DNA from: Priestia megaterium
GTDB lineage: Bacteria; Bacillota; Bacilli; Bacillales; Bacillaceae_H
Reading direction: 5' to 3'
Assembly: GCF_009497655.1 (NCBI RefSeq)
Contig: NZ_CP023317.1
Location: 509,001-573,000, forward strand
Length of the DNA: 64,000 nt
The position numbers were made by a program, and so were the translations under genes. This document shows, piece after piece, positions 13,228-23,340 of this stretch (its first letter is position 1; each line of letters begins with the position of its first letter). The notes under the pieces are model-generated. The model saw only the letters and a list, made by a program, of their open reading frames with translations, searched no databases and was not told the origin of the DNA.

Positions 13228-13320
13228 AGCAATCACTAGGGGAGCTTTTTGAAGCTGAGACGGATGTATTTCGGACCCTTTGAACCTGATCTGGTTTGGA
13301 CCAGCGTAGGGAAGTGGCGA
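13228..13320 (+). ncRNA. TPP riboswitch (THI element)
   Basis: The conserved thi-box features occur in order: ACTAGGGG at 13235, GCTGAGA near 13254, ACCCTTTGAACCTGATCTGG at 13275-13294, and ACCAGCGTAGGGAAGTGG at about 13299-13316. It lies between a sigma-A promoter and a strong intrinsic terminator, so thiamine pyrophosphate should stop transcription before tenI. The aptamer's 3' part would have to compete with the terminator through the GATCATG...CATGC linker; I did not model the alternative fold. Confidence 0.95.
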
Positions 13321-13345
13321 TCATGTTTACATAACGATGCATGCT

Positions 13346-21535: not shown

Positions 21536-21572
21536 GTGTATTCATCTCCTCGTTAGATAAAATAGATTGTAA

Positions 21573-21648
21573 TGGTTGAGTTAGCTGGAGTTGAACCAGC
21601 CGAGCAGATACATCGATTAGACCTGCTTGCCTACCGCGGCGTAACTCA
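21573..21648 (-). tRNA. tRNA-like cloverleaf with encoded CCA and abnormal anticodon arm
   Basis: On the minus strand 73 bases plus CCA fold as follows. The acceptor stem is TGAGTTA with TAACTCA (7 perfect pairs), then discriminator A and encoded CCA (21575-21573). The T arm is GCTGG-TTCAACT-CCAGC and fits the GGTTCRANYCC box. A 3-bp D-like arm is GCC-GCGGTA-GGC. The middle arm is AGCAGGT with ATCTGCT (one G.U) enclosing 11 bases, instead of a 5-bp stem with 7-base loop, so no anticodon can be assigned. It lies between the sigma-G promoter and the SASP start codon, on the same strand. It may be a processed tRNA-like RNA, a relic tRNA, or a leader structure. Confidence 0.7.
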
Positions 21649-21682
21649 ATGTTTGCGAGCTGTTGTGCTCGGTTGTTACTAG

Positions 21683-21713
21683 TATTATGGCGAAAGGTAA
21701 AAAAACATATACA
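21683..21713 (-). promoter_or_regulatory. Probable sigma-G promoter of the SASP gene
   Basis: Minus strand: TGTATA (21713-21708), 18-bp spacer, CATAATA (21689-21683). This fits forespore sigma-G promoters. The predicted transcript starts near 21676 and would include the hairpin at 21656-21671 and the tRNA-like element. Confidence 0.7.
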
Positions 21714-21828
21714 TAGAAAATTATTGGTAATTTATAGAAATTTTTGTGTGGAGTTTGATAAAGAGTAAGAGAGTTTTATTCCGTGCATATTATAGGTACA
21801 TATTGATCAGGTAAAGCGAGGTGTGCGG

Positions 21829-22071
21829 ATGTCGATTTGTTCCTTATGTAATGGGTTTAGTGATGTACAAATGACGTGTAAAGCATGTGGAGAAGTGCTA
21901 GGGGATATGGGAAAAGTCAGCGATTATTTTGATGATTACAGTGCTTACATGGAAATCGATCAGTTAAAAGTAGAAAATGGGTATCCTAGTGATTTAGCAA
22001 ATCACCAATGTATTCATCTCTTTTATTGCTCTACTTGTCACAGTGAGGAATTGAAGCAAATACAGGAATAA
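21829..22071 (+). CDS. Small zinc-ribbon-like protein of unknown function
   Basis: 80 residues from the ATG at 21829 (MSICSLCNGF), with GAGGTG just upstream. Three Cys-x-x-Cys pairs (CSLC, CKAC, CSTC), plus HQC and a conserved HLFYCSTCHSEE end, indicate zinc binding. The middle is acidic (DYFDDYSAYMEID). No family assigned; similar small proteins occur in spore formers. A terminator follows at once. Confidence 0.65.
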   Translation: MSICSLCNGFSDVQMTCKACGEVLGDMGKVSDYFDDYSAYMEIDQLKVENGYPSDLANHQCIHLFYCSTCHSEELKQIQE

Positions 22072-22096
22072 AAAAAGACCCCTAAGGGTCTTTTTT
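22071..22096. terminator. Bidirectional terminator
   Basis: GACCC (22077-22081), loop CTAA, GGGTC (22086-22090), flanked by A and T runs. Shared with the convergent msmX gene. Confidence 0.88.
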
Positions 22097-23204
22097 ATTC
22101 GTGTTCAGCACGGATGCGCTGTTCAGATTCTGCATCAAAGAAATGTGCTTTGTTCATATCTAATGCTAAGTCTAGAGACTGAAGCGGTTTAATATCTGTT
22201 CTTGAATCTACGCGTGCTACAAAATCTTGTCCGCCAAGTTTAGAATAAAGCATGGTTTCAGCTCCCATTAACTCGGATACATCGACTTTAATGGTAACTT
22301 TTGTGCCGGGTGAAGATTCAATAAATACAGGCTCATCATGGAAATCTTCAGGACGGATGCCTAAAATAATTTGTTTATTTAAATATCCTTGCTCGCGAAG
22401 TATTTTCATTTTACCTTCCGGAACTGCAAGAAGAGAATCGCCTACTTGAACCTTTCCGTCTTTTAACGTTCCGGTTAAGAAGTTCATAGCAGGAGAACCA
22501 ATAAACCCGCCTACAAATACATTTTCAGGTTTTTCATATACTTCTTTTGGTGTACCAACCTGCTGGATAATCCCATCTTTCATAACAACCAGACGAGAAG
22601 CCATTGTCATTGCTTCGGTTTGGTCATGTGTTACGTAAATTGTCGTTGTACCCAAACGCTGGTGAAGCTTCGCAATTTCAGAACGCATTTGCACACGTAA
22701 TTTCGCGTCTAAGTTTGATAAAGGTTCGTCCATTAAGAAGACCTTAGCATCACGAACGATTGCACGACCTAGAGCTACACGCTGACGCTGTCCGCCGGAT
22801 AATGCTTTTGGCTTGCGCTCTAAGTATTGCTCAAGTCCTAAAATACGAGCGGCATCTTTTACGCGGCGTTCGATTTCATCTTTTGGTAATTTACGAAGTT
22901 TTAAGCCGAAAGCCATGTTGTCATATACGCTCATATGCGGATACAATGCGTAGTTTTGGAATACCATTGCAATATCGCGATCTTTTGGAGCAACGTCATT
23001 TACACGCTTGCTGTCAATATAAAAATCACCTTTGGAAATTTCCTCTAGCCCTGCAACCATACGAAGCGTTGTCGATTTCCCGCAGCCTGAAGGCCCAACA
23101 AATACAATAAATTCTTTATCTTGAATGTGAAGGTTAAAATCTTTTACCGCCGTCACATCTTTATCATACATTTTATAAATATGTTCTAAACGTAATTCAG
23201 CCAT
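22095..23204 (-). CDS. msmX: Multi-sugar ABC transporter ATPase MsmX
   Basis: Shared ATPase that energises several sugar importers (maltodextrin, arabinan, melibiose and others in B. subtilis). The start is set at 23204 (369 residues, [14 protein letters not shown]), because AAGGGGG lies 8 bp upstream; the frame extends further but without a ribosome binding site. Walker [10 protein letters not shown] near residue 37, signature LSGGQRQR near residue 134, Walker [17 protein letters not shown], and a C-terminal regulatory OB domain ([10 protein letters not shown]). The gene stands alone, as MsmX usually does. A CcpA-like site lies 28 bp upstream. Confidence 0.92.
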
Positions 23205-23231
23205 TTCCATTTCCCCCTTGTATGTACTCTG

Positions 23232-23245
23232 TGAAACCGTTTTCT
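23232..23245. promoter_or_regulatory. Possible cre (CcpA) site upstream of msmX
   Basis: TGAAACCGTTTTCT fits the TGNAANCGNWNNCW core. Location in the msmX leader would allow catabolite control of a shared sugar ATPase. Confidence 0.45.
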
Positions 23246-23294
23246 TAACTCTAGTGTAATTTTTTTTAATGAAACGGTAAATGGCAAACATGCA

Positions 23295-23340
23295 CAAAAA
23301 AAAGAAAGAGTTTTCGTGCACTATTTACGAAAACCCTTTC
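23295..23340 (-). terminator. Terminator of the PucR/CdaR-type gene
   Basis: GAAAGAGTTTTCGT (23304-23317) pairs with ACGAAAACCCTTTC (23327-23340), one mismatch, followed on the minus strand by a run of T. Confidence 0.8.

Follow-up and report, generated by a model that had tools for sequence, protein, structure and literature searches.

In spores, alpha/beta-type SASPs coat the DNA and account for much of the resistance. In the window, by which we mean the whole 64,000-nucleotide stretch of Priestia megaterium DNA analyzed here, the leader of one SASP gene contains a cloverleaf that looks like a tRNA, and the question raised by this locus is what such a structure does in front of a spore protein gene. 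The first-pass annotation had described it as 73 bases plus an encoded CCA, placed between a sigma-G-type promoter and the SASP ribosome-binding site, with a perfect 7-bp acceptor stem, a small D-like arm, discriminator A, and an abnormal middle arm (7 bp with an 11-base loop) to which no anticodon can be assigned. Direct reading and folding of the sequence confirm this description. A conserved tRNA-derived SASP leader lacking an Rfam 15 family of its own would represent a new layer of forespore gene expression, and also a natural case in which a tRNA acts in cis on the mRNA that carries it, for which the available parts of the sources offer so far the yjdF riboswitch and tRNAs grafted into synthetic mRNAs. 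Among openly licensed PMC papers, we found no published description of a tRNA-like SASP leader; the single paper in which "tRNA-like" and "small acid-soluble" occur together deals with an unrelated matter, and the portion of the BSGatlas main text at hand contains neither "tRNA-like" nor "ssp" as whole words.

Structure and conservation of the tRNA-like leader

The components of the locus are collected in Table 1. Judging from the promoter-like sequence, transcription would be expected to start about 7 nt downstream of the -10 element. The tRNA-like structure (TLS) folds by itself as a cloverleaf at -26.6 kcal/mol, compared with -18.3 +/- 2.7 kcal/mol for shuffled sequences (z of -3.07, with 2 of 200 shuffles as good), and this single-strand fold pairs the middle arm slightly differently from the arm as drawn. 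The cloverleaf is also predicted within the whole leader. A small hairpin preceding it is visible by eye in the five closest genomes and is not a conserved part of the element. Downstream, 21 nt separate the CCA from the Shine-Dalgarno (SD) sequence in the window.

Table 1. Features of the TLS-SASP locus and other features noted in the window
Feature	Position	Strand	Remarks
sigma-G-like promoter, -35 TGTATA	21708..21713	-	sequence read directly
sigma-G-like promoter, -10 CATAATA	21683..21689	-	18-bp spacer from -35; sequence read directly
Small leader hairpin CGAGC-ACAACA-GCTCG	21656..21671	-	5' of TLS; whole-leader fold
TLS, 73 nt + encoded CCA (76 nt)	21573..21648	-	most like tRNA-Gln
Acceptor stem, 5' strand TGAGTTA	21642..21648	-	pairs with 21577..21583
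D-like arm GCC-GCGGTA-GGC	21629..21640	-	fold and alignment
Middle (anticodon-position) arm	21603..21627	-	7 bp (one G-U), 11-nt loop
T arm GCTGG-TTCAACT-CCAGC	21584..21600	-	5 bp; loop TTCAACT
Acceptor stem, 3' strand TAACTCA	21577..21583	-	completes 7-bp acceptor
Discriminator A + encoded CCA	21573..21576	-	
Shine-Dalgarno GAGGAG, then ATGAAT	21546..21551	-	weak type, typical of TLS-bearing SASP genes
Alpha/beta-type SASP, 72 aa	21317..21535	-	Pfam PF00269, 73.8 bits
MsmX/UgpC-type ABC transporter ATPase	22095..23321	-	usual neighbor of the TLS-SASP locus; NCBIfam PRK11650.1, 505.4 bits
Small cysteine-rich protein	21823..22071	+	divergent from SASP gene; weak zf-CHY match, below cut-off
TPP riboswitch	13228..13329	+	78.9 bits

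General tools hardly recognize the element. ARAGORN reported no tRNA in the window or in the ten genus orthologues (L001 to L010), which, together with the missing anticodon, rules out a real tRNA gene. No Rfam 15 family matched the window TLS at gathering score, the best tRNA-like match on its strand being tRNA-Sec with 16.5 bits, far under the cut-off. For the TLS of the window and of the scanned loci, the only family to reach its cut-off was the general tRNA family (RF00005), in one of the ten orthologues (L008, 29.1 versus 29 bits).

Compensatory conservation of the acceptor and T stems across Priestia, which had been named as the check on the original proposal, is indeed found. In a MAFFT alignment of the genus (8 distinct rows), the acceptor, D, and T helices are paired in 100% of cells, with double changes in three acceptor pairs and one T pair, and the middle helix, poorly aligned by MAFFT, is paired in 70%. 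Whole-structure controls are modest at this level, as 7 of 500 shuffles attained the covariation score and 49 of 500 had as many doubly changed pairs. In an alignment of 95 copies (91 distinct), which was fitted to the structure of covariance model R1 and so leans to it, and whose rows are related (the genus alignment was unfitted), 95.0% of cells pair and 18 of the 22 pairs show double changes, including all three of the D-like arm. The 300 double-change cells compare with 80.3 +/- 9.3 after shuffling, a value matched by none of 500 shuffles, and sliding the register gave a score of at most 0.044 versus 0.355 for the true one.

The T stem and the acceptor are joined in a single uninterrupted stack, of whose 12 pairs at least 11 are present in 86 of the 95 copies; six of the nine copies below this value are second tandem copies. 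The insert that separates the T arm from the 5' strand of the acceptor ranges from 17 to 67 nt, and the middle arm is free in both length and sequence across species. The parts that are kept are thus the acceptor/T stack, the T-loop, and the RCCA end, with the anticodon-position arm free or lost. An encoded CCA is present in 87 of the 89 primary copies and in 38 of another 40, compared with 297 of the 359 tRNA genes of the fetched loci (28 of 29 for tRNA-Gln). The discriminator is A in 76 and G in 19 of the 95 copies (A in 28 and G in 12 of 40 more), and the acceptor begins with a U1-A72 pair in 86 of the 91 distinct rows. Conservation drops sharply on either side of the TLS (nucleotide 1 and A76), except that position -3 is kept as a pyrimidine and position -2 as a purine.

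Some leaders depart from the single full-length form. Tandem double TLSs were seen by eye in SASP leaders of L217, L219 to L222, L224, L225, L253, and L275 (g65, family f47), as well as in L102 (Neobacillus niacini), and the second copies are devoid of CCA in 8 of 8 model-matched rows. Minimal forms of 52 to 58 nt with one arm lost occur in L141, L142, L085, and L109. In L198 (G048), the SASP frame that follows a 111-nt TLS form looks interrupted.

Distribution and genomic context

The cloverleaf is confirmed as a real element, with a far wider spread than the first-pass annotation had implied. The TLS leader is present in 10 of 10 Priestia genomes, all copies keeping the acceptor stem, the T arm, the D-loop GG, discriminator A, and the CCA. 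Within the same family, R1 matched in 16 of 16 genomes (4 genera), in each of which the TLS precedes a SASP gene; in two of them (G014 and G015) only 58 nt are left, made up of acceptor, T arm, and one hairpin. Scanning the order with R1 at an E value of 2e-7 gave matches in 79 of 397 genomes. We analyzed the context of 69 order loci (the out-of-family R1 matches minus two in G210, plus three pattern hits), and an alpha/beta SASP ORF lies directly 3' of the element in 64 of them, L198 included. Four of the other five loci are tRNA-Gln genes, and the fifth is an isolated tRNA-Gln-like gene. The wider model R2 cannot be used alone, since tRNA-Gln genes score up to ~51 bits; 39 of 40 further R2 matches precede a SASP gene, the exception being a tRNA-Gln gene. 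The TLS was verified directly upstream of a SASP gene in at least 119 of the 397 order genomes, belonging to 19 of the 47 sampled families, a lower bound because the large scans are lossy and only part of the R2 matches were fetched. In the class scan (378 genomes, some of them in the order), run with lossy filters at a threshold of 2e-8 at which weak or shrunken forms would escape detection, the single out-of-order match was a tRNA-Gln gene. With the leader model, this gene (L299, in G651 of the same class) scores 51.1 bits.

Among 80 named SASP loci, the TLS was found in 22, always on the sense strand and just 5' of the ORF (two of them, from Domibacillus, weak), and these include loci of B. 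halotolerans, B. pumilus, B. safensis, Rossellomorea, Metabacillus, Peribacillus, and Ectobacillus. A general SASP feature can be rejected, as there was no match at the other 58 named loci or at any of 20 Priestia paralogue loci.

The C-terminal motif of the MsmX/UgpC ATPase is found in 47 of the 52 TLS loci with ~1.5-kb flanks, the five others being L180, L185, B. halotolerans L089, and two Domibacillus loci, and in 55 of 139 when short fetches are included, compared with 6 of 58 TLS-less SASP loci and none of the 20 Priestia paralogue loci. By synteny, the TLS-SASP locus is mostly one locus. The six TLS-less loci next to msmX show an empty state, consisting of promoter-like sequence, few bases, a strong SD, and the ORF. 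In the SASP protein tree the TLS label is clustered (24 changes versus 52.7 shuffled, with L089 wrongly labeled "none"), and because this tree is poorly resolved and does not establish one origin, synteny was used instead.

Likeness to tRNA-Gln and comparison with other tRNA-like RNAs

In a comparison against tRNAs of 20 isotypes, taken from the fetched clusters and including few for Ala, Ile, or Pro, 87 of 89 copies were closest to tRNA-Gln, with a median margin of 23 score units, and shuffles that keep the stems gave tRNA-Gln as the best isotype in 47 of 267 cases. Some ascertainment is possible, because the models used to collect the copies had themselves been derived from such elements; the first element, that of the window, was picked without reference to it. 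The likeness to tRNA-Gln(UUG) covers an acceptor of the TGGGYTA/TARCCCA type, a D-arm of the GCCAAG..GGC type, the T arm, the CCA, and the U1-A72 pair, a tRNA-Gln feature read by GatCAB, and the isotype comparison agrees with descent from tRNA-Gln. However, the TLS has no tRNA-type anticodon arm, its D-loop is shrunken, its discriminator is mostly A, and it sits in an mRNA leader. In a functional tRNA-Gln, the UUG anticodon would lie in a loop of 7 nt closed by a 5-bp stem, while the window has an 11-nt loop on 7 bp, and the discriminator G73 of 28 of the 29 local tRNA-Gln genes is replaced in the window by A. The remaining one of these 29 genes has discriminator A.

An isolated extra tRNA-Gln-like gene, not associated with a SASP gene, occurs in L236/L300-L304 (g51, family f3; for instance G205:C1:2445012-2445084). 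By eye, a terminator-like hairpin lies 3' of it in 5 of 5 genomes, a sigma-G-like -35/-10 pair is present in 2 of the 5, and ARAGORN assigns the anticodon UUG in three and CAG in two.

Several described RNAs share part of this architecture. The yjdF riboswitch is likewise a tRNA-mimicking cloverleaf in an mRNA 5' leader, upstream of the SD, and probably acts on translation, according to the portion available of PMC9142559. The SASP TLS differs from it in being most like tRNA-Gln, in the lack of predicted pairing between T arm and SD, and in its association with SASP genes and a sigma-G-like promoter. The family model of the yjdF riboswitch, RF01764, gave no match in the window or in the scanned loci. 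A kinship with tRNAOther of Bacillus cereus, a question raised in the first-pass annotation, is not supported. As far as the accessible text of PMC3399842 describes it, tRNAOther is also a degenerate tRNA within a larger RNA of a Bacillus, but it is a pseudo-tRNA with a Trp anticodon that lies beside a pathogenicity island and has a sigma-B promoter and Fur control. By that description, the anticodon-less, tRNA-Gln-like TLS with its sigma-G-like promoter belongs to another kind of locus, and we regard it as a tRNA-like mRNA leader of its own, outside yjdF. MALAT1, tmRNA, and other RNase P substrates also carry a tRNA-like fold as part of a longer RNA that RNase P can attack (PMC4919913, in the part consulted). 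The TLS differs from these in its position 5' of a bacterial ORF, and its cleavage by RNase P is a proposal made here. In tRNA-mRNA cotranscripts such as thrU-tufB of E. coli, a functional tRNA lies 5' of an ORF in one transcript; the layout is the same, whereas the TLS lacks an anticodon.

Translation signals and possible roles

Scored against the sigma-G consensus, a -35/-10 pair lies upstream of the TLS in 73 of 89 copies (shuffle mean of 0.58), and in its strict form in 59 of 89 (shuffle mean of 0.27). Its -10 element ends 18 to 84 nt 5' of the TLS, which is therefore expected inside the transcript. The conservation of this pair favors the sigma-G-type promoter of the first-pass annotation, and with it the idea that a sigma-G-like (forespore-type) SASP transcript would carry a tRNA mimic in its 5' leader. 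The earlier interpretation is thus partly supported, to which our analysis adds the wide spread, the tRNA-Gln kinship, and an association with weak SDs.

The distance between the CCA and the SD is constrained to 10 to 23 nt, with a median of 16 (82 of 89 copies with a recognized SD). With the start codon picked by the best SD in every group, TLS genes have a median SD strength of -10.8 kcal/mol (GGAGG in 18 and GGAGAT in 88 of 123), versus -17.1 kcal/mol for TLS-less SASP genes (GGAGG in 50 of 56), -18.7 kcal/mol for the six TLS-less genes at the msmX locus (GGAGG in 6 of 6), and -16.9 kcal/mol for the Priestia paralogues (GGAGG in 12 of 16). The SD is weaker in TLS genes than in TLS-less ones with a Mann-Whitney p of 5e-22, a value that ignores the kinship of the genes. 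The yjdF-type off state, in which the T-loop side is paired to the SD, was not seen in silico: the predicted SD-TLS pairing (secondary structure only) has a median probability of 0.012 and exceeds 0.3 in 1 of 82 copies. We can thus reject a riboswitch with an SD sequestered by the TLS, and the near-zero pairing suggests a constitutive element rather than a switch. A transcription attenuator was also rejected, as a T-run follows the TLS in only 5 of 89 copies; both results together make either type of regulation unlikely.

The best reading, to which we give an even chance, is that the TLS is a domesticated cis-tRNA and raises translation of the SASP mRNA in the forespore. In this view, an ancestor within the order would have taken up a copy of tRNA-Gln into the leader of a single alpha/beta SASP gene, 3' of its sigma-G promoter and 5' of its ribosome-binding site, and the copy would have been retained as a cis-acting mRNA element without decoding function. 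Folded in the forespore mRNA 10 to 23 nt 5' of a weak SD, it would aid ribosome loading, perhaps by docking at a ribosomal tRNA site such as the E site, and would lead to bulk production of the TLS-led SASP; a strong SD (GGAGGTGA replacing GGAGATGA) would make it dispensable. In the sections available of Trachman et al. 2022 (PMC9142559), the yjdF aptamer is a tRNA-Lys-like leader with ribosome binding when folded, and translation in PURExpress in vitro rose 2- to 6.3-fold once a tRNA had been grafted 5' of an SD. SASP leaders show the layout of this grafting experiment in natural form, with weak SDs, and enhancement is therefore taken as the most likely role. We hold somewhat more cautiously the fuller view of an order-wide natural cis-tRNA that recruits ribosomes by its tRNA shape, let the gene drop its strong SD, and may also preserve the mRNA or its ribosomes through dormancy. 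Against enhancement, a shape-based mechanism has no need of the nearly invariant RCCA, and in the accessible text of the yjdF paper an ACCA to UAAU change cost little (PMC9142559). The minimal forms may fail to build a full L, there is no obvious ribosomal reason to keep U1-A72, the weak SD could instead keep the TLS from misfolding or serve to lower expression, and the predicted accessibility of the SD is only about one half (median of 0.47 unpaired), its partners being mostly neighboring spacer or ORF sequence.

RNase P is suggested by the strictly kept RCCA and the 12-bp stack. It would cut at the TLS 5' end, so that a monophosphorylated, stacked acceptor caps the SASP mRNA against 5'-3' exonuclease and the encoded CCA blocks RNase Z from severing the TLS from the ORF; stability, not initiation, would be raised. 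We consider this unlikely as the explanation, and it is the main rival of translational enhancement or a companion that may act together with it. RNase P gauges its substrates by the T/acceptor stack, and CCA is an anti-determinant for RNase Z (PMC4919913, as far as available). The TLS has the contiguous 5+7-bp stack, the T-loop, and the RCCA tail of such a substrate, with cleavage itself predicted; the variable insert, the sharp fall of conservation at both ends, and a 5' leader of some tens of nucleotides also fit. On the other hand, RNase P has no obvious need of the D-arm motif or of U1-A72, second tandem copies do without CCA, and the CCA may be mere inheritance from tRNA-Gln. The nearly invariant U1-A72 and the encoded CCA could also indicate that the SASP mRNA serves as carrier of a separate small tRNA-like RNA of the forespore, which would work in trans by binding to GatCAB, EF-Tu, or an aminoacyl-tRNA synthetase, and the lone g51 gene, with its terminator-like hairpin and, in 2 of 5, a sigma-G-like pair, would agree with this. 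We find this improbable: the anticodon arm is unconserved, the tRNA-Gln discriminator G has mostly become A, the constrained SD spacing would be needless for a trans-acting RNA, and the lone gene, a tRNA-Gln(UUG) per ARAGORN in 3 of 5, could be an ordinary extra tRNA. A neutral relic of a tRNA-Gln gene landed by chance in the leader would explain the likeness to tRNA-Gln, but it is contradicted by the covariation, with compensatory changes across many families while flanks and middle arm are free, and can hardly be right.

Outside the stem, the two conserved bases of the 5' flank (window positions 21650 to 21651) are a pyrimidine at -3 in 87 of 89 copies and a purine at -2 in 86 of 89, and possibly represent an RNase P or leader contact.
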